Assembly: GCF_003977685.1 (NCBI RefSeq)
Contig: NZ_RYZH01000012.1
Coordinates: 64,778-128,777, forward strand
Reading direction: 5' to 3'
Length of the DNA stretch: 64,000 nt
Source of the DNA: Tautonia sociabilis
GTDB lineage: Bacteria; Planctomycetota; Planctomycetia; Isosphaerales; Isosphaeraceae
The notes beneath the pieces are model-generated. The model saw only the letters and a program-made list of their open reading frames with translations, was not told where the DNA came from and made no database searches. Both the position numbers and the translations under genes were made by a program. Of this stretch, positions 50,359 through 59,901 are shown piece after piece (position 1 is the first letter of the stretch; every line of letters starts with the position of its first letter).

Positions 50359-51567
50359 CTATCGCGTCCGAGCCGCGATGAACGACGCCACCACCCGACC
50401 GCCGATCTCCCCCGAGCCGGAGTTCGGCATCAGGCAGGTTCGGACCCCCGGTCCCCGGGAGAAGTACTCGCGATAGATCGCGTTCATCGGTTGATAATCC
50501 TCCATGTCCTGGAGGTAGACGCAGCCCGAGACGATGTTCTCGAGCCCCAGGCCCGCCTCCCGGAGGATCGAGGAGTGGCGGCGGGCCATCCGGTGCACCT
50601 GGTCCCCGAGGTCCTCCCCGGGATCGGGCCCGATCCCGGAGAGGCCGGAGAGATAGAGCGTGTCGCCGGCCCAGACGGCGGGGCTGGCGACCACCGCCCC
50701 GTCCAGCCCCTCCTCCGCCTCGACGACCCGGACCACCGCTCGACCGTCGAGGTCGGTGGTGGCGATGCAGGTGATCTCGACGTGGGACCCGCCGGGGATC
50801 CAGTCGACCGCCACGGTGGCGCAGGCGGGCTCATTCCCGTCGTCGAAGAACTCGCCGTAGACCGCGCTGGCCGCCGCGACGTTGGCGGGATCATCCAGGA
50901 ACACGTGGCTCATGACCACGTGCTCGAAGCCCAGGCCCGCCTGGCGGAGCGTCGCCTCGACGTTCCGCATCGCCTGGCGGACCTGTTCCTCGAACCCTTC
51001 GGGGTGGCCGCCGCCGGGGAGCTGGTCCCCCTTGCCCGAGATGTAGAGGGTGTCGCCGGCCAGGATCCCCGGGCTGAACGGGAACCCGCCGGGGGGATCG
51101 CCGATGCGACGTCGTTCCGAGGGGTCGCTGTAGGCGATGCAGGTGATCTCCAGCCGGGACTCTCCCGGGACCTGCGCGACGCCAAGCGTGGTCCGAGCCG
51201 GGGGGTCTTCCGGGAAGAATTTTGCATATTCCGTGTTGAATTCGTCATACATCTCGGGATCTTCGAGATAGACGAACGACTTGACGACGTCCCCCAGATC
51301 GAGGCCGGCCTGTTGCAAGGTCCCCCGGACCTCGTTGAGGCAGTTGGCGACCTTCTCCGGGAAGTCCTCGTTGGGGCGGTAGTCTCCCTTGCCCGCGACA
51401 TAGACGGTCTTGCCCACCATGATCCCGGGGGCGAAGAGGCCCGTCGGGCGTGCTCCGTCCCGAGTGAGGAACCGCTTCTCGGGGGGCTGGGCCGCGGCCG
51501 GATCGCCCGATCCGAGGGCGATCGCGATCGCGATGACGGGGAGCACGATGATTCCGGATCGTTCCAT
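50359..51567 (-). CDS. Exported protein with three tandem RidA domains
   Basis: A 402-aa protein: signal peptide (1-26, AIAIALGSGDPAAA) followed by three RidA/YjgF folds at about 38-147, 161-272 and 290-400. Each repeat has the pattern GxTxYxSGKG, helix with AGL..VV, and a closing strand EITCIA-like. RidA proteins are normally single-domain homotrimers that hydrolyse enamines/imines released by PLP enzymes, with substrate bound by an Arg. By eye that Arg is kept in domain 1 (R125, PARTT) and domain 3 (R376, VRTC) but is Cys249 in domain 2. The protein may thus be a single-chain trimer. ATG 51567. Divergent from the amidohydrolase and PLP-enzyme genes. Confidence 0.85.
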   Translation of the reverse strand: MERSGIIVLPVIAIAIALGSGDPAAAQPPEKRFLTRDGARPTGLFAPGIMVGKTVYVAGKGDYRPNEDFPEKVANCLNEVRGTLQQAGLDLGDVVKSFVYLEDPEMYDEFNTEYAKFFPEDPPARTTLGVAQVPGESRLEITCIAYSDPSERRRIGDPPGGFPFSPGILAGDTLYISGKGDQLPGGGHPEGFEEQVRQAMRNVEATLRQAGLGFEHVVMSHVFLDDPANVAAASAVYGEFFDDGNEPACATVAVDWIPGGSHVEITCIATTDLDGRAVVRVVEAEEGLDGAVVASPAVWAGDTLYLSGLSGIGPDPGEDLGDQVHRMARRHSSILREAGLGLENIVSGCVYLQDMEDYQPMNAIYREYFSRGPGVRTCLMPNSGSGEIGGRVVASFIAARTR

Positions 51568-51818
51568 GCCGCTTCCTCTCCTTCGACGAGGCTGGAGGGA
51601 TCATCCGACGACTCGGAGGGCGAGTCTAGCAGCCCGACCGGCCTCGAGCCATCGTTCCCCCCGGGGCCGGGGGATCACCGTCACGGGCCGGACGACGACG
51701 CCTCGGGCCCTCCCCCGTCCCCCGACGATCTCCCAGTCGATTGACCCGGGGGGTCCCATGACGCAGCATAGCGGGGGCCGGGATGGACCACCAAGACTCT
51801 TGTCGCACCGAGGGCTCC

Positions 51819-53180
51819 ATGAGACCGCTGCTCGCCTTGCTGCTCCTCTTGATCGCGGGGACGGCTCCCGCCCAGGAGCCATTCGACCTGGTGCTCCGCG
51901 GCGGACACGTGATCGACCCGGCGAACGCGATCGACGCGGTCCGCGACGTGGCGATCCGGGACGGCGTCATCGCGGCCGTCGCTCCGGAGATCGACCCGAA
52001 GGCGGCCCTGAAGAGCGTCGACGTCTCCGGCCTCTACGTGACCCCCGGCCTGATCGACCTGCACGTCCACGTCTTCACCGGGACGGGGGAGCCCGGCTCG
52101 TTCACCGGGGACAGCAGTGTCCATCCGGACGTCGTCTCGATCCGAAGCGGCGTCACGACCGTGGTGGACGCCGGCTGCGCCGGCTGGCGGAACTTCGAGG
52201 AGTTCCGCCGGCTCGTCATCGACCGCTCCCGCACCCGGGTTCTCGCCTTTTTGAACATCGTCGGCCACGGCATGCGGGGACGCCGCTATGAAGGCGACCT
52301 GGACGACATGCAGCCCGAGCCCGCCGCCGAGATGGCCCGGCGCCACCCCGACCTTATCGTCGGGATCAAGACCGCCCACTACATGGGCCGGGAATTCACC
52401 GCGGTCGAGCGGGCCGTCGAGGCCGGGACGCTGGCCGGCCTCCCCGTGATGGTCGACTTCGGCCGGGTCTATCCCGAGAAGTCCCTCGAGGCCCTGCTGA
52501 CCGAGAAGCTCCGGCCCGGAGACATCTACACCCACGTCTACTCCGGCCTCCGGGGCGAACTGACCCCGGACGGGCACGCCAACCCGGCGCTGTTCGAGGG
52601 CCGATGCCGGGGGATCCTCTTCGACGTCGGCCACGGCGGGGGAAGCTTCGTCTGGGGGGTGGCCGTGCCGATCATCAGCGAGGGCTTCCCCCCCGACACG
52701 ATCTCGACCGACCTGCATTCCGCCAGCATCAACGAGGGGATGAAGGACATGCTCAACGTTATGAGCAAATTCCTCGCCCTCGGCATGCCGCTCGACGAGG
52801 TGATCCTCCGATCGACCTGGAATTCCGCCCGGGCGATCGGGAGGGAGCGGCTCGGGAATCTCTCCGTCGGCGCTCCGGCCGATGTGGCCGTCCTGAGGCT
52901 GGAGGAGGGGAACTTCGGCTTCCTCGACTCGTACAACGCCCGCCTCAACGGCGACCGGAAGCTGACCTGCGAGATGACCCTCAGAGACGGCAAGGTCGTC
53001 TACGAGCTGAACGGGCTGACCCGGCCGGACTGGACCACGCTGCCCCCCGGTTATCGGGACACCGGCGACCCGCGCTGGGACGGAACCCTGGGCCGCCGCA
53101 ATCGCCGGCTCCAGCCCCCTCGGGACCCGGGGCCCCCGGCCGGGCCCTCGGAAGAAGACGAACCGGACCAGAGGCCGTAG
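51819..53180 (+). CDS. Exported amidohydrolase, cog3964/dihydroorotase-like
   Basis: A 453-aa amidohydrolase-superfamily enzyme with signal peptide (1-18, ending APAQ). Metal ligands by eye: H82-x-H84 (LHVHVF), carboxylated Lys184 (VGIKTAHY), H239 (THVYSG), H272 (GHGGGSF) and catalytic D298 (STDLH). This matches the group once annotated dihydroorotase that includes EF0837/Atu3266, for which deacetylase activity on an N- or O-acetyl alpha-hydroxy acid type substrate has been reported. Those genes also neighbour SelA-like PLP enzymes, as here (51 bp downstream). Start: ATG 51819 with GAGGG; ATG 51783 is possible. Confidence 0.85.
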   Translation: MRPLLALLLLLIAGTAPAQEPFDLVLRGGHVIDPANAIDAVRDVAIRDGVIAAVAPEIDPKAALKSVDVSGLYVTPGLIDLHVHVFTGTGEPGSFTGDSSVHPDVVSIRSGVTTVVDAGCAGWRNFEEFRRLVIDRSRTRVLAFLNIVGHGMRGRRYEGDLDDMQPEPAAEMARRHPDLIVGIKTAHYMGREFTAVERAVEAGTLAGLPVMVDFGRVYPEKSLEALLTEKLRPGDIYTHVYSGLRGELTPDGHANPALFEGRCRGILFDVGHGGGSFVWGVAVPIISEGFPPDTISTDLHSASINEGMKDMLNVMSKFLALGMPLDEVILRSTWNSARAIGRERLGNLSVGAPADVAVLRLEEGNFGFLDSYNARLNGDRKLTCEMTLRDGKVVYELNGLTRPDWTTLPPGYRDTGDPRWDGTLGRRNRRLQPPRDPGPPAGPSEEDEPDQRP

Positions 53181-53231
53181 CCAACCCCCGTGCGCATGAC
53201 GATCGACCCGAGGACCATTCGGAGACCGACG

Positions 53232-54461
53232 ATGATCCAACCCTTCCGCACCCGGCGACGGACGTTCTTCGCCTCGCTCGCCGGCCTGCCCGGCCTCCAC
53301 CTGCTGGCTTCCGAAGGCCGGGCGGCGCCCCGGGAAGACGCCCGGACGCCCGCCGCCGGCCGAGACGTGATCGGCGAGCTGGGCGTCCGCTCGTTCATCA
53401 ACGCGGCCGGCACGTTCACGGCGCTGACCGGCTCGCTGATGCCGCCGGAAGTGGTTTCGGCGATCCAGGTCGCCGCGCGCAAGTATGTCCGCCTGGAGGA
53501 CCTGCACAACGCCGTCGGGGCCCGGATCGCCGAGCTGCTCGGCTGCGAGGCCGCCCTGGTGACCGCCGGCTGCGCCTCGGCCCTGTCGCTGGCCACCGCG
53601 GCCTGCGTCGCCGGCGACGACCCGGAGCGAATCCGACGCCTCCCGGACACCCAGGGCATGAAGGACGAGGTCCTCGTCCAGCGGACCCACCGCGTCGGCT
53701 ACGACCACGCCATCCGCAACGCCGGCGTCCGCATGATCGAGGTCGAAACCCGAGAGGAGCTGGAGCGAGCGATCAGCGACCGGACCGCCATGATGTTCTT
53801 CTTCAACGCGGCCGACCCGAGAGGTCAGATCCACCGCGAGGAGTTCATCGAGATCGGCAAGAGCCACGGCATCCCCACGCTGCTCGACGCCGCCGCCGAC
53901 GTTCCCCCGGTCGACAACCTCTGGAAGTACACGAAGATGGGGTTCGACCTCGTCGGCTTCTCCGGGGGCAAGGGGCTCCGGGGGCCGCAGTCCTCGGGGC
54001 TGCTGCTCGGCCGCAAGGACCTGATCGAGGCCGCCAAGCTCAACAACAGCCCCAATTCAGACTCCCTCTGCCGCACCAACAAGGTGAACAAGGAGGAGAT
54101 CGTCGGCATGCTCGTCGCCCTGGAACGCTACCTCCAGCTCGACCATGACGCGATCTGGAAGGAGTGGGAGGGGCGCTGCCATCGGATCATCGAGGCCCTC
54201 TCGGAATTCGACGACGTCCAGACCGAGATCTACGTCCCCGAGATTGCCAACGCCGTCCCCCACCTCCGCATCCGGTGGGACTCCGAGAAGCGGGGGATCC
54301 GGCCCAGCGAGGCGGTCGAGAAGCTCCGCAACGGCGACCCCAGCATCGAGCCCAGCCCCGGCTCCGGCCGTCGCGACGTGGTCATCGGCGTCTGGATGAT
54401 GGAGCCCGGCGACGACGCGATCGTCGGCGACCGGCTCCGCGAGATCCTCGCCGGCGCGTGA
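53232..54461 (+). CDS. Exported SelA/DgaE-like PLP-dependent enzyme
   Basis: A 409-aa fold-type I PLP enzyme of the SelA-like group that contains D-glucosaminate-6-phosphate ammonia-lyase (DgaE) and EF0838. The probable Schiff-base Lys247 is in FSGGKGLRGPQSSG; LLDAAADVPP (217-226) is the cofactor-binding Asp strand. The N-terminus has RTRRRTFFASLAG, a Tat-type twin-arginine signal, fitting export of a folded PLP protein. It follows the amidohydrolase by 51 bp on the same strand. The reaction is likely an alpha,beta-elimination of an amino acid or amino-sugar acid; exact substrate unknown. Confidence 0.85.
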   Translation: MIQPFRTRRRTFFASLAGLPGLHLLASEGRAAPREDARTPAAGRDVIGELGVRSFINAAGTFTALTGSLMPPEVVSAIQVAARKYVRLEDLHNAVGARIAELLGCEAALVTAGCASALSLATAACVAGDDPERIRRLPDTQGMKDEVLVQRTHRVGYDHAIRNAGVRMIEVETREELERAISDRTAMMFFFNAADPRGQIHREEFIEIGKSHGIPTLLDAAADVPPVDNLWKYTKMGFDLVGFSGGKGLRGPQSSGLLLGRKDLIEAAKLNNSPNSDSLCRTNKVNKEEIVGMLVALERYLQLDHDAIWKEWEGRCHRIIEALSEFDDVQTEIYVPEIANAVPHLRIRWDSEKRGIRPSEAVEKLRNGDPSIEPSPGSGRRDVVIGVWMMEPGDDAIVGDRLREILAGA

Positions 54462-54493
54462 CCGGGCCCGAGCCCCCAGCAGGGCGCCGAGGA

Positions 54494-54519
54494 CGCCGAG
54501 GGCCCCGAGGCCCTCGGCG
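54494..54519. terminator. Bidirectional hairpin terminator
   Basis: CGCCGAGGGCC (54494-54504), loop CCGA, GGCCCTCGGCG (54509-54519): a perfect 11-bp stem between the convergent PLP-enzyme and RraA-like genes. Confidence 0.65.
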
Positions 54520-54531
54520 GGCGAGGCCGCG

Positions 54532-55485
54532 TCAGAGCAGGGGCTCGATCACCGCTCGAGGGATCGGAGGCTTCTCCGGCCTCTGGTCGAGCCACTTGTA
54601 GAAGTCGGCCTTGATCTCTTCCGTCCAGGGGATATCGATCTGCCCGGGGGTGTAAACGCCGTCTCGGAGCCGGATGTGGCCGAACTCGTCCTTCAGCGCG
54701 ATGACCTCGGACGTGACCACGACCTCCTCCGCCAGGTGGGGGGGGATGATTATCACCCCCTCCCGCTTGGCCAGGACCACATCGCCGGGCAGGACCGTCA
54801 CCGCGCCGATCCGGATCGGCCGGTTGATCGAGGTCAGGACCATCCCCTTCAAGAACGACGGATCCCAGCCGCGCACGAAGGCGTTGAACCCCTCGATCTG
54901 GCTCAGCCCGTCCAGGTCCCGGGCGCCGGCGTTGAACACGACGCCGTTGCCGGAGCGCGCGTAGATGGCGTTGCCGAGGTTGTCGCCGATGAGCGTCCCA
55001 TCGGCCACCTTGCCGCAGCCGTCGGCAATGTAGACGTCCCCCGGCTGCAACTGGTCGATCGGCCAGGAATTCGACGGGCCGATCCGGCCCTCGGCCTGCC
55101 CGGTTCGGTTGACCTGCTCGACGAGATCGGGGCGAGCCGGCAGGTAGGCGGCCGTCAGCGCCCGGCCGACCACCGGCCGGTCCGGGTGGATCGTCTGCCA
55201 GCCTCCCTCAAACTGGTGCTCGTAACCGTGCCGGCGGAGGACGTCCCAGGCCTCCTCGATCGAAACCTTCTCCATCCGCCGGAGGAGGTTGTCGGGGACC
55301 ATCGGCCTGCCGTCGGGGGATCGGTCGCCGGTCCACTGACTCGTCATCGCCAGTAGGTCGGCCTTCGACGCGGCGATCCCGGACGGCGACTCCTGGGCCA
55401 CCGCCTCCCGGGTGGTCGACATCCCGAGGACGAGAACCGCGGCGATCGCGGCCCTCCCGGTAGCTCGGTCGAGGAGAGAAAGCAT
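54532..55485 (-). CDS. Exported RraA-like (HMG/CHA aldolase superfamily) protein
   Basis: A 317-aa protein: signal peptide (about 1-30, ending AVAQE), then the RraA/4-hydroxy-4-methyl-2-oxoglutarate aldolase fold. Landmarks: GDNLGNAIYARSGNGVVFNAGARD, the active-site strand that normally reads xDGxxRD and keeps the RD pair here, and GDVVLAKREGVIIIPP. Superfamily members are divalent-metal pyruvate aldolases/decarboxylases or the cytoplasmic RNase E inhibitor RraA; export excludes the latter role. It is convergent with the PLP-enzyme gene and divergent from the PQQ dehydrogenase. Confidence 0.83.
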   Translation of the reverse strand: MLSLLDRATGRAAIAAVLVLGMSTTREAVAQESPSGIAASKADLLAMTSQWTGDRSPDGRPMVPDNLLRRMEKVSIEEAWDVLRRHGYEHQFEGGWQTIHPDRPVVGRALTAAYLPARPDLVEQVNRTGQAEGRIGPSNSWPIDQLQPGDVYIADGCGKVADGTLIGDNLGNAIYARSGNGVVFNAGARDLDGLSQIEGFNAFVRGWDPSFLKGMVLTSINRPIRIGAVTVLPGDVVLAKREGVIIIPPHLAEEVVVTSEVIALKDEFGHIRLRDGVYTPGQIDIPWTEEIKADFYKWLDQRPEKPPIPRAVIEPLL

Positions 55486-55734
55486 CAGAGGACGACTCCG
55501 CTTCTGGAAGAAACCAGGGCGCGACCCAACGCCCCGGAAGCCGCGTCGTTCGTCGAGGAGGACGGCTCGTCGAGCGGCCTGAACCGACCCTGAATAGCCC
55601 GCCGCGGGGCGATCGTCAACACACCCCCGCCCCCGGCCCCGGTTCTCCCCTCGGTGGGATCGGAACCTCCCTCCCCGGGGCCCCGGCAGGTAGACTGGGG
55701 GCCTCTTCTCCTGAGTGACATCCGGAACCGAACC

Positions 55735-57624
55735 ATGCGACCTGACCCGATCGCCCTCGTCGTCCTCCTGGCCTGCTCCGGGATCGCTGGCGGCCAGCCA
55801 TCGAGGACCGTCGACTGGCCCGCCGTCGGAAACGACCCCGGCTGCATGCGCTACTCGGAGCTGGACCAGATCAACCGGAGCAACGTCCAGCTGCTCGAGC
55901 CCGCCTGGACCTACCGCACCGGGGAGCTCGAGGGCCGGGTCGGAAAGACGATCGAATGCACACCGATCATCATTGACGGCGTGATGTATGTCACCACGGG
56001 ATACCTCCGGGTCGTCGCCCTCGACGCGGCGTCCGGCGAGGCGCTCTGGGAGGTCGATCCCCTGAACGAGCATCCCTGGGAGCATGCTCCCGCCTCGGGC
56101 GGCGTCAACCGGGGCTGCGCCTACTGGAGCGACGGGGATCCCGACGGCCAGCGGCGGATCATCCACGGCACGTCGGACGGCCGCCTGTTCTCGATCGACG
56201 CGAGGACCGGAGCGCTCGACCCGGCGTTCGGGAACGGCGGGATCGTCAACCTCCGCGAGGGCCTGGAGCCGAGGTTCGCCCGGCTCAGCTACGGCCCGAC
56301 CTCCGCGCCGGCGATCTGGGAGGACACGATCATCGTCGGCGTCTCCTGCGGGGAGGGACCGGGAATCGCCGCCCCCGGAGACATCCGGGCGTTCGACGTC
56401 CGCTCGGGAGCGGAGCGCTGGCGATTCCACACCGTCCCCGAGCCGGGAGAGTTCGGGATCGAAACCTGGGAAGGGGACTCATGGAAGGACCGAGGGGCCG
56501 CGAACGCCTGGGGAGGGTTCAGCGTCGACACCGATCGCGGGATGGTCTTCGCCGGGCTCGGCTCGGCGGCGTTCGACTTCTACGGCGGCGACCGCCTCGG
56601 CGCGAACCTCTTCGCCAATTGCACCATCGCCCTCGACGCCCGGACCGGCGAACGGATCTGGCACTTCCAGACCCTTCACCATGACCTCTGGGACCACGAC
56701 CTGCCGGTGTACCCGAACCTCGTGACCGTGACTCGGGACGGCCGGCCGGTCGATGCCGTGGCCCAGGTCACCAAGACCGGATTCGTTTATCTGTTCGACC
56801 GAGAGACGGGAACACCGCTGTTCGAGATCGAGGAGCGCCCGGTCCCCGCCTCCGACGTCCCCGGCGAGCGGGCCTTCCCGACGCAGCCGATCCCGGTCAA
56901 GCCGCCGCCGATCTCCGCGCAGCACCTCGACGAGTCGAACATCACCACCATCGGCGAGGCCAACCGCGAGTCGGTCCTCCGGCAACTGCGGCAGCTCCGC
57001 AGCGGTCCCGCCTTCCTTCCCCCCAGCCTCCAGGGAACGGTCGTGATTCCGGGCTACCACGGCGGGGCGAACTGGTCCGGGGCCTCGTTCGACCCGGAGA
57101 CGGGGCTGCTCTACGTCAACTCGAACAACGTCCCGAACATCATCACCCTGGTCGAGGAGTCGGGGGACCAATCGCGTCGCTACGGGCCGTTCGGCCACCT
57201 CGGCTACGTCCAGTTCCGGGACCTCGAGGGCTACCCGGCGATCGAGCCCCCGTGGGGCGTCCTGAACGCGATCGACCTGAACTCGGGAGCGTTCGCCTGG
57301 CGGGTGCCCCTCGGGGAACACCCCGAGCTGACCGCCCGGGGCATCCCCCGGACCGGCACCGAAACCTTCGGAGGCTCAATCGTGACCGCCGGCGGCCTGG
57401 TGTTCATCGCCGGCACGAAGGACGAACGGATCCACGCCTTCGACAAGGCGACCGGCGAGCTGCTCTGGGAGCACCCCCTGCCGGCCGGCGGCTATGCGAC
57501 CCCGTCGACCTACATGGTCGACGGCCGCCAGTACCTGGTCATCGCCGCCGGAGGGGCCGGCAAGCTCGGCACGAAGGCCGGCGACTCGTTCGTGGCCTTC
57601 GCCCTCCCGGTCGACGGGGAGTGA
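55735..57624 (+). CDS. PQQ-dependent dehydrogenase (glucose dehydrogenase-like)
   Basis: A 629-aa quinoprotein. Signal peptide 1-20; eight-bladed PQQ propeller with repeated tryptophan-docking pattern (LDAASGEALWEVD, IDARTGALDP, LDARTGERIWHFQ, FDRETGTPLFEI, FDKATGELLWEH). FQTLHHDLWDHDLP and YHGGANWSGASFDPETGLLYVNSNN are landmarks of membrane-type glucose and polyol dehydrogenases. No haem c domain or N-terminal membrane anchor is present. It oxidises a sugar or alcohol in the periplasm. ATG 55735 is chosen by the signal peptide. 250 bp from the RraA-like gene, divergent. Confidence 0.87.
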   Translation: MRPDPIALVVLLACSGIAGGQPSRTVDWPAVGNDPGCMRYSELDQINRSNVQLLEPAWTYRTGELEGRVGKTIECTPIIIDGVMYVTTGYLRVVALDAASGEALWEVDPLNEHPWEHAPASGGVNRGCAYWSDGDPDGQRRIIHGTSDGRLFSIDARTGALDPAFGNGGIVNLREGLEPRFARLSYGPTSAPAIWEDTIIVGVSCGEGPGIAAPGDIRAFDVRSGAERWRFHTVPEPGEFGIETWEGDSWKDRGAANAWGGFSVDTDRGMVFAGLGSAAFDFYGGDRLGANLFANCTIALDARTGERIWHFQTLHHDLWDHDLPVYPNLVTVTRDGRPVDAVAQVTKTGFVYLFDRETGTPLFEIEERPVPASDVPGERAFPTQPIPVKPPPISAQHLDESNITTIGEANRESVLRQLRQLRSGPAFLPPSLQGTVVIPGYHGGANWSGASFDPETGLLYVNSNNVPNIITLVEESGDQSRRYGPFGHLGYVQFRDLEGYPAIEPPWGVLNAIDLNSGAFAWRVPLGEHPELTARGIPRTGTETFGGSIVTAGGLVFIAGTKDERIHAFDKATGELLWEHPLPAGGYATPSTYMVDGRQYLVIAAGGAGKLGTKAGDSFVAFALPVDGE

Positions 57625-57760: not shown

Positions 57761-59527
57761 ATGATCTCCGCGACCCTGATCTCGATCGGCCTGACCCTCT
57801 CGTCCGGCGAGGCCCCCTCGGAGCAGGCTCCCTCGCCGTCCGGGGTCCGGCCCGAGGGAACAATCGCCTTCGCCTCCCTCGCGCCGAGGGGCTGGGACCT
57901 CTATGCGGTCGAACCGGCCTCCGGTCGCGAGCGTCGCGTGACCGACCACCCCCTCCTGGACTACAACGCGGCCCCCTCTCCCGACGGCCGCCACATCGCC
58001 TTCGTCACCGAGCGCGACGGCAACCCGGAACTCGCCCTGCTCGACCTCGACACCGGCAAGGTTGAGCGGCTCACCAGCGCCTTCGCCCTGGACGACCACC
58101 CGGCCTGGTCTCCCGACGGTCGGATGCTGGCCTTCTCCAGCACTCGGGAGCCGGCCGAGGAGCCGGGGAGGCCGTGGAACGCCATCTACCTCCTGGACCT
58201 GGAGGATCGGTCGATCCGGCGCCTCTCGCCGCCGGGGGCGGCCGACTTCTCCCCGTCCTGGTCTCCCCGGGGGGACCTGATCGCCGTGGCCTCCGGAGAC
58301 GGCCGCCCCGGGGGGACGGACGTCTGGGTCATGTCCCCGGACGGGAAGGATCGCCGGCTGGTCGTCGAGAACGCCGGCTGGCCGTGCTTCTCGACCGATG
58401 GCGAGTCGCTGTTCGTCCATCGCCGGGAGGACGAGTGGGGCATCTGGAAGGTCGGGCGGGACGGCTCGGACCCGGAACGGATCACCCCGGCCGGCGTCTC
58501 GGCCTTCACTCCCCACGCCTCGGCCGACGGCAAGGCGGTGTTCGCCGGCATCGAACGGGAAGGCCACCGCCAGATCGCGCGGATCGACCTCGAGTCTCGA
58601 GCGATCGCGTACCTGACCGACAGCCCGACCGACCACTGGAACCCCCGCAGCGCTCCCGATGGCTCGCTCGTCTACTATCACCGCCAAGCCCCCGACACCT
58701 CCCCTCCGAACGTCGAGGAGTGGGGTTCCCCCGACGAGGCTCGCGTCCGGATGCTCCGGCTCGACGGAGCATTCCCGGCCTTCTCCCCCGACGGGACTCG
58801 CCTGGCGCTGGTCGGCGGCAGCTTCGATCGCCTGGACGTGATGGGGGTCGACGGGAGCGATCGCAAGACGCTCTATCAAGGATCGCGTCGCGCGCTGTTC
58901 AGCACCTCCTGGTCGCGAGTCGGGGACCGGATCGCCTTCGCCCGGGGCCCGGTCTTCCAGGGCCCCGAGGGCGACGTGGACATCCTGCTCATCTCTCCCG
59001 AAGGGGGAGAGGCCGTCCCTCTGACCGACTCCCCAGGCAACGACGGCTTCCCAGCCTTCTCCCCCGACGGCGAGCGGCTGGTCATCCGGTCGGGACGGGA
59101 TGGCCGGAAGAACCTCGACCTCATCGGCCGGGATGGGACCGGCGTGACCCGGCTGACCGAGGGGGACTGGACCGACTCGATGGCCGACTGGTCCCCGGAC
59201 GGGCGCTGGATCGTCTTCGCCAGCGACCGAGACGGCGACTTCGACCTCTGGATGGTCCGGCCGGATGGGTCGGGCCTGAAGAAGCTGCTCGGCGGCGGGG
59301 GCCGGGACAACCACCCCCACTTCTCCCCCGACGGGGAGTGGGTGGTCTTCACCAGCCAGCGAGCCGGCCAGTCGGCCGAGGAGGCCTCCTTGCCCGATCA
59401 GCCGCAGCCCTACGGGGAGCTGTTCGCGATCCGGGTCGACGGGACGGGGCTGATCCGCCTGACGCACAACGGGTTCGAAGAGGGAACCCCCGCCTGGGGA
59501 CCCCGGTCAACCGCTGTTGGACAGTGA
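57761..59527 (+). CDS. Exported TolB-like beta-propeller protein
   Basis: A 588-aa protein of repeated PD40/TolB-type blades: recurring SPDGR-xIAF and DRDGDFDLW patterns, more than ten in all, enough for two propellers. The N-terminal segment ISATLISIGLTLSSGEA is a short signal peptide. Such proteins in planctomycetes are binding or scaffold proteins without demonstrated enzyme activity. It follows the PQQ dehydrogenase by 136 bp; GAGGA precedes the ATG by 11 nt. C-terminal peptidase domain of the DPP-IV type is absent. Confidence 0.82.
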   Translation: MISATLISIGLTLSSGEAPSEQAPSPSGVRPEGTIAFASLAPRGWDLYAVEPASGRERRVTDHPLLDYNAAPSPDGRHIAFVTERDGNPELALLDLDTGKVERLTSAFALDDHPAWSPDGRMLAFSSTREPAEEPGRPWNAIYLLDLEDRSIRRLSPPGAADFSPSWSPRGDLIAVASGDGRPGGTDVWVMSPDGKDRRLVVENAGWPCFSTDGESLFVHRREDEWGIWKVGRDGSDPERITPAGVSAFTPHASADGKAVFAGIEREGHRQIARIDLESRAIAYLTDSPTDHWNPRSAPDGSLVYYHRQAPDTSPPNVEEWGSPDEARVRMLRLDGAFPAFSPDGTRLALVGGSFDRLDVMGVDGSDRKTLYQGSRRALFSTSWSRVGDRIAFARGPVFQGPEGDVDILLISPEGGEAVPLTDSPGNDGFPAFSPDGERLVIRSGRDGRKNLDLIGRDGTGVTRLTEGDWTDSMADWSPDGRWIVFASDRDGDFDLWMVRPDGSGLKKLLGGGGRDNHPHFSPDGEWVVFTSQRAGQSAEEASLPDQPQPYGELFAIRVDGTGLIRLTHNGFEEGTPAWGPRSTAVGQ

Positions 59528-59901
59528 TCGGGCTCTCGGGAGTCCGGCCAGTCCGGGCGGGGAGGCCGCCCAGGCGGAGGCCAGGGCCGGGGCCGGGGCC
59601 GTTCGAGTCGGCCAGGAGCGGCGAACGGAGGGCCGCTCGCTCCGATCTCCGATCGCCACGGAGCCGGCCTGGCGTCTCCCTCCGATCAACGGGACGCGAT
59701 CTCCCGGGGCACCCCCCCGTCGTCAGAAACCTGGAAACCATGTTTGCGAAACGTTAAACTCACGCTGAGATCATTCTGGTCGGAGCCTCCTCCTCCCACC
59801 CGCAGGTTCCCCAGCAATCCTCCTCACCGCGATGATCCGGCCCCGTGGCGGCCCCCGCCTCGCGGGTCGGAGGCGATGACCCGGTTTCTGAGGTGAGCCC
59901 C
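59528..59901. other. Intergenic region upstream of DUF1592 gene
   Basis: 374 bp without a gene. It contains a short GGGGCC triplet repeat near 59590-59604. An AT-richer patch around 59740-59780 (TTTGCGAAACGTTAAACTC) is the likely promoter zone for the next two genes, though no clear -35/-10 pair was found. Confidence 0.5.

Follow-up and report, generated by a model that had tools for sequence, protein, structure and literature searches.

A candidate extracytoplasmic catabolic module of amidohydrolase, SelA/DgaE-like, RidA and RraA proteins in Tautonia sociabilis and soil Acidobacteriota

The DNA analysed here ('the window') is a stretch of 64,000 nucleotides from the planctomycete Tautonia sociabilis, whose genome measures 6.76 Mb (contig NZ_RYZH01000012.1, positions 64,778 to 128,777 of the forward strand). 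Four of its genes encode a cog3964 amidohydrolase/deacetylase (AHS), a SelA/DgaE-like pyridoxal 5'-phosphate (PLP) enzyme, a protein with three RidA domains in a single chain (RidA3) and an RraA-like aldolase. We propose, with a probability of roughly 0.68, that these are the consecutive enzymes of one catabolic route operating outside the inner membrane. Judging from their sequences, the four genes travel together, their products start with signal-like N-termini, and the catalytic residues that were checked are mostly conserved; as a predicted exported module, the set is well supported by its co-inheritance and its signals. A sequence-only reading of the window had joined five neighbouring genes into a single exported route, with a pyrroloquinoline quinone (PQQ) dehydrogenase as its first enzyme. 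The part of that proposal concerning AHS, the SelA-like enzyme, RidA and RraA is retained here, and the part concerning the dehydrogenase is not.

All five open reading frames are present and belong to the families first assigned to them: profile searches with Pfam and NCBIfam gave matches far above chance. RidA3 (402 aa, Sec-type signal) lies at 50359..51567 on the minus strand, AHS (453 aa) at 51819..53180 on the plus strand, the SelA-like enzyme (409 aa, twin-arginine signal) at 53232..54461 on the plus strand, and RraA (317 aa, Sec-type signal) at 54532..55485 on the minus strand. The PQQ-type dehydrogenase, also exported and judged to be a neighbour outside the module, follows at 55735..57624 on the plus strand. 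RidA3 and AHS are thus divergent, the SelA-like gene and RraA convergent, and the dehydrogenase gene divergent from RraA; this strand order (- + + - +) rules out one operon in the window.

The block RidA3-AHS-SelA-RraA was found in two further genomes of the same family (G007 and G023), with order and relative orientation kept, 66 to 73% identity, and no PQQ gene. A close SelA orthologue (at least 71%) was present in three of 59 relatives, and some match at E <= 1e-20 in nine. RidA3 and RraA each occurred in three of the 59, namely those with the close SelA orthologue, and in none of the 56 others; AHS occurred in the same three block genomes and in one more. The block is rare in Planctomycetota as a whole, since SelA (E <= 1e-60) was found in 5 of 392 genomes and RidA3 (E <= 1e-50) in one.

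A survey was then made of 396 genomes of Acidobacteriota, the phylum to which G437, source of locus L028, belongs. SelA, at the same threshold of E <= 1e-60, was present in 40 of them. Sixty stretches were fetched, covering 36 of the 40 SelA-positive genomes (G437, G441, G540 and G747 were left out), and in 19 of these 36 all four components lay within 4.2 to 10.9 kb. RraA was seen in 19 of the 60 stretches, all with the full set, AHS in 28 and RidA in 31. The full-set loci comprise 13 of a 'Granulicella type', three (L140 to L142) in which SelA, RraA and AHS accompany a triple RidA, and L150, L155 and L169. Nine of the Granulicella-type loci have the exact order RraA-SelA-RidA-SelA2-AHS, with the five genes on one strand. 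Several full-set genomes look like close kin, so fewer than 19 of these occurrences are independent. Together with the three block genomes, these counts mostly bear out, for the four module genes, the co-occurrence in relatives that the sequence-only reading had named as its check.

Neighbouring families, each named from one representative, were counted around the 13 Granulicella-type loci; counts in the acidobacterial stretches omit L001-L010, L020, L061, L097-L106 and L114, which were PQQ regions, short stretches or duplicates. A propeller hybrid sensor was found at 13 loci, an outer-membrane barrel at 12, a response regulator at 11, a lactonase at 8 (7 by profile search) and a flavin-dependent (FAD, BBE-type) oxidase at 4. 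A D-galactonate-type transporter of the major facilitator superfamily, below its family cut-off, lies near 8 of the 13, and a beta-galactosidase gene is also among the neighbours. The full set is borne by plasmid pACIX902 of Granulicella tundricola MP5ACTX9 (L129, by its gene content judged to be the same locus as L117), where RraA, SelA, RidA, SelA2, AHS and the lactonase all have signal-like N-termini; a BBE-type FAD oxidase, next in line, has no visible signal. At least two SelA-like genes, including a Tat-type paralogue, are present in each of the 13 loci (L117:9701-11299; L122-L134). On one acidobacterial contig (L040), 12 kb of sequence contain four paralogues of the SelA-like gene along with two RidA genes and a truncated AHS.

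Signal calls were made with our own hydrophobicity script, not with SignalP. By this measure all five window proteins have signal-like N-termini. At 22 distinct full-set loci (the duplicate locus L117/L129 being counted once), the same was true of RraA in 22 of 22 cases, AHS in 23 of 23, SelA in 35 of 38 (33 with a twin arginine) and RidA in 26 of 27 (18 with a twin arginine). Across 85 rows of the SelA clade, 66 were signal-like, 58 of these with a twin arginine as well, and some of the others are cut off or mis-started; the cytoplasmic DgaE-like relatives L013-L016 and L018 begin directly at the core. As controls, 50 proteins from cytoplasmic families were run through the script; 10 of them, mostly from one ABC-ATPase family, were called signal-like, and none of the 50 was so called with a twin arginine; among 15 rows of cytoplasmic-type relatives the figures were 4 and 0. 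Export is thus predicted for the window proteins and for most proteins at the 22 loci, with the Sec-type calls less firm than the Tat-type ones, and the signal part of the check named in the sequence-only reading is mostly borne out as well. The PLP enzyme has the motif TRRRTFF of the twin-arginine translocation (Tat) system, and a TatC is encoded in the genome.

The SelA-like enzyme matched TIGR01437, the DgaE family, at E 1.1e-55 with 189 bits (cut-off 385.3), and NF047797 with 170.9 bits (cut-off 600); at scores under both cut-offs, it is classed as a relative of the DgaE family, not an equivalog. Its predicted model has a mean confidence (pLDDT) of 88.3, with residues 1-40 below 50. The closest solved fold is DgaE (7lc0), with template modelling (TM) scores of 0.78/0.86 and 27% identity in the structural alignment, and Cap15 (8t7j) comes second and nearly level (0.77/0.86). 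The PLP lysine K247 and D219 are kept in 38 of 38 rows.

RidA3 matches Ribonuc_L-PSP in three stretches (Pfam E 2.7e-58), as expected of a Rid-family protein with three domains. We take the arginine checked in each domain to be the carboxylate-binding residue: R125 and E140 are both kept in domain 1; in domain 2 the arginine is replaced by C249 and E264 is kept; in domain 3 R376 is kept and the glutamate lost. At least one catalytic site thus looks complete at the sequence level. The predicted model (pLDDT 78.6, predicted TM score 0.82) retrieved chorismatases first (TM 0.55/0.66) and single RidA domains next, which would agree with RidA-like domains arranged in one chain and is read no further. 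Triple-RidA single chains also occur at L140:8050, L141:7873 and L142:6067, the window copy being one with partly lost catalytic residues; such a chain may be a RidA trimer in covalently joined form.

AHS exceeds the cut-off of NF006689 (436.6 bits against 371) and is a cog3964 member. Its nearest solved relatives are 8wzy, 2ogj, 8je0 and 2ics; we take 2ogj to be Atu3266 and 2ics to be EF0837, the latter presumably linked to a SelA-like gene (EF0837-EF0839). H82, H84, K184, H239 and D298, presumed metal ligands, are invariant in 56 of 56 rows. AHS shares its amidohydrolase family with 2ogj and 2ics but differs by its export and by its metal-ligand set: position 213 is Asp in 54 of 56 rows and His in two, both cytoplasmic-type, as it is in 2ogj and 8wzy. 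Asp213 of the exported branch is a possible change of the metal site. RraA matches PF03737 (E 2.9e-18) and belongs to the RraA/HMG aldolase family, and its R189-D190 pair, presumably the functional pair of that family, is kept in 22 of 22 rows.

Outside these loci, the association becomes looser. The scan of named genomes gave 76 SelA loci. Across 82 loci (63 with 5 kb on both sides; L112 included, L061 dropped as a duplicate of G007), AHS was within 5 kb of SelA in 25, RidA in 14, RraA in 5 and the PQQ gene in 1; at seven loci of cytoplasmic-type SelA genes, none of AHS, RidA, RraA or PQQ was found within 5 kb. Fourteen hand-picked genomes hold 56 AHS copies, about four each, and by our own estimate chance adjacency of AHS to SelA should be below 1% per locus, the loci not being independent. 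A RidA domain is fused in frame to a SelA/DgaE-like domain in G163 (L112, 9173-10699), and the start of RraA lies 16 nt past the stop of the fusion. An NAD-dependent epimerase-family gene (PF01370, Epimerase) lies upstream; neither it nor the fusion nor RraA has a signal, the SelA part being internal. The succession of this fusion and RraA supports the reading of a single route. The fusion was sought in nine genomes of its order and seen in one, G163 itself. The region upstream of it also holds a DUF4962 gene, a GntR-type regulator and a weak match, short of the cut-off, to a 3-keto-disaccharide hydrolase. The single-route reading also draws on the arrangement ABC importer-AHS-RidA-SelA-ABC ATPase in Sinorhizobium sp. 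B11 and on RidA-SelA amid ABC genes in R. leguminosarum and R. phaseoli. In the haloarchaeal Natrinema, a GH20 hexosaminidase and a D-aminoacylase lie near a SelA-like gene.

A quick tree of 96 SelA rows, whose only branch support is SH-aLRT, groups the window row with four planctomycete rows (support 99); this clade is nested in a group of 18 rows that is acidobacterial in all its other members (support 97). Bacteroidota and Alphaproteobacteria contribute further lineages, as does one Actinomycetota record, and four other planctomycete rows (L110-L113) fall elsewhere on long branches. Transfer is the simplest reading of this tree, with Acidobacteriota as the probable source of the planctomycete block.

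The route that we propose would run as follows. AHS would take the acyl group off an N-acylated 2-amino-3-hydroxy acid. The PLP enzyme, having crossed by Tat folded with its cofactor, would eliminate water to give an enamine/imine, which RidA3 would convert to a 2-keto-3-deoxy acid and ammonia. RraA would then either split the keto acid into pyruvate and an aldehyde or decarboxylate it, and the products would be taken up by the cell. The oxidation step that forms the acid would vary by lineage.

Several observations weigh against such a route. The four module genes point in different directions in the window and so form no single operon. Because of the 10 signal-like calls and the lack of any twin arginine among the 50 control proteins, the Tat-type calls are firm and the Sec-type calls weaker; moreover, three RidA calls (L126, L133, L150) used an internal start. 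H272 of AHS is kept in just 11 of 23 rows, and D168 of RraA in just 4 of 22. Elimination by the SelA-like enzyme is not certain, because Cap15, second among its fold matches, is a PLP monooxygenase-decarboxylase that depends on oxygen. The partners of SelA are often missing across the 82 loci, so it also acts alone or in other settings. Finally, peptidases, an amidase and a PatB-like C-S lyase, the last scoring just under its cut-off, are found at some SelA loci; such neighbours suit amino acids better than sugars. An L-threonine 3-dehydrogenase lies near L130-L132. A SelA-like domain annotated as hypothetical was also seen on a Rhizobium indigoferae plasmid (L121:6932-8536), in a phosphonate cluster with aepX; a role in the module is thus not common to all SelA-like genes.

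The substrate that we favour, at about even odds, is an N-acetyl-2-amino-2-deoxy-aldonic acid or a like sugar-derived amino acid. The same exported module might instead degrade N-acylated beta-hydroxy-amino acids that are not sugars (serine, threonine, 3-hydroxyaspartate, or others derived from peptides), RidA clearing 2-aminoacrylate-type enamines and RraA acting as an oxaloacetate decarboxylase or hydroxy-keto-acid aldolase. Our first context clustering of SelA loci pointed to a peptide setting, and this alternative was kept after the larger survey. It draws on the threonine dehydrogenase and on the SelA-like loci, some with AHS, that hold amidase, PatB-like C-S lyase, S10, S15, M14, M20 and gamma-glutamyltranspeptidase genes; in addition, the PLP lyase OngC, discussed below, also takes D-serine and D-threonine according to the part of its description available to us (PMC9537276). 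The lactonase, FAD oxidase, galactonate-type transporter and beta-galactosidase of the Granulicella-type loci argue, however, for a sugar acid, as do GH20 and the D-aminoacylase in Natrinema. Both characterised fold neighbours use sugar-linked substrates too: glucosaminate-6-phosphate for DgaE, going by its chain name, and glycyluridine for Cap15, as given in the portion of the source at hand, both being sugar-bearing amino acids. On balance we consider a non-sugar substrate the less likely of the two.

A second alternative concerns the chemistry: the SelA-like protein would be an oxygen-using PLP enzyme like Cap15, placed outside where oxygen is plentiful, and would oxidise an amino acid to an imine that RidA hydrolyses. 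The near equality of Cap15 and DgaE as fold matches speaks for it, and PvdN, likewise a Tat-exported PLP enzyme, uses oxygen according to the section of the paper accessible to us (PMC7497351). The best sequence model is nevertheless the DgaE ammonia-lyase subfamily, albeit under its cut-off; RraA as the next step requires a keto-deoxy or similar acid; and the signal-less forms, the fusion and the rhizobial genes, show the RidA pairing too. We regard oxidation as improbable, and elimination remains the preferred chemistry.

The PQQ dehydrogenase, which the sequence-only reading had placed at step one (sugar to aldonate), is probably just a neighbour. It matches PF01011 at E 3.2e-201, and TIGR03074, the glucose/quinate dehydrogenase family, with 483.6 bits, under the cut-off of 832.65. 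At E <= 1e-100 it is present in 17 of 59 relatives, 16 of them without the block, and the window genome is the sole overlap. It was dropped from the module because it is absent from both other block genomes, G007 and G023, and present in those 16. The window is the one locus of the 82 with a PQQ gene within 5 kb of SelA, and the stretches fetched for the 13 Granulicella-type loci showed no PQQ gene. PqqE was not found above cut-off in G000, G007 or G023, but 14 control genomes gave nothing above it either, which makes this negative weak evidence. A single pathway of all five genes, for which their adjacency in the window and the PQQ-type genes near SelA in three of the 60 acidobacterial stretches (L151, L155 and L174, within 5 kb) and farther off in L140 can be cited, is very unlikely given these absences, and as a conserved feature it is largely refuted. 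A TolB-like beta-propeller gene (57764-59527, plus strand; TIGR02800 match below cut-off) adjoins the dehydrogenase gene, and a tRNA-Leu(gag) (59531-59622, plus strand) lies directly 3' of it.

Literature searches, made among open-licence papers, returned no description of an exported set of this make-up. The closest precedent found is cytoplasmic and had not been named in the sequence-only reading: the ong cluster for oxidative chitin use in Pseudoalteromonas prydzensis. The part of its description available to us has N-acetylglucosaminate converted to 2-keto-3-deoxygluconate, acetate and ammonia by the deacetylase OngB, the PLP lyase OngC and the RidA protein OngD, the last being needed for growth (PMC9537276). 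Deacetylase, PLP lyase and RidA are thus function classes common to ong and, by predicted role, to the window block. In the same excerpt, OngB and OngC are predicted to be cytoplasmic, whereas AHS and the SelA-like enzyme have signal-like N-termini; OngC has PLP fold type III, whereas the window enzyme has the DgaE/SelA-like fold; OngB is closest to D-aminoacylase; and 2-keto-3-deoxygluconate is phosphorylated by KdgK, with no mention of RraA in that part of the text (PMC9537276).

Other comparisons concern single enzymes. DgaE (7lc0) of the dga pathway has in common with the SelA-like enzyme the PLP fold, the nearest subfamily and the catalytic lysine; the window enzyme differs by its export and its low identity, and no phosphotransferase system gene is among the annotated neighbours. 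PvdN and PtaA of pyoverdine maturation are periplasmic PLP enzymes that, in the passages at hand, keep their PLP bound while crossing by Tat (PMC6206403). Like the SelA-like enzyme, whose export is predicted, they are of Tat type; unlike the proposed module, they carry out biosynthetic tailoring, with no amidohydrolase, RidA or RraA partner mentioned in those passages (PMC6206403). Cap15, from capuramycin biosynthesis in Streptomyces, is described in the extracts available as a PLP monooxygenase-decarboxylase (PMC7497351, PMC6384614); it has a SelA-like fold and a sugar-linked beta-hydroxy-amino acid substrate, and its role is biosynthetic, unlike the catabolic one proposed here.

We tentatively suggest, at somewhat less than even odds, that Acidobacteriota, and through transfer some Planctomycetota, degrade amino-sugar acids wholly outside the cytoplasm, the Granulicella form having its own two-component sensor, an entry barrel and in many cases a galactonate-type importer to take up the products. 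The copy on the plasmid of a named strain, G. tundricola MP5ACTX9, makes the module directly testable. If the proposal is true, PLP-dependent elimination, a reaction known from the cytoplasm, would take place in a new setting beyond the inner membrane, alongside an imine hydrolase of its own, and a function would be on offer for several proteins that soil Acidobacteriota carry under the names 'RraA family', 'RidA family' and 'deacetylase'. Soil bacteria would then possess a self-contained extracytoplasmic system for amino-sugar acids, undescribed as far as those searches show.

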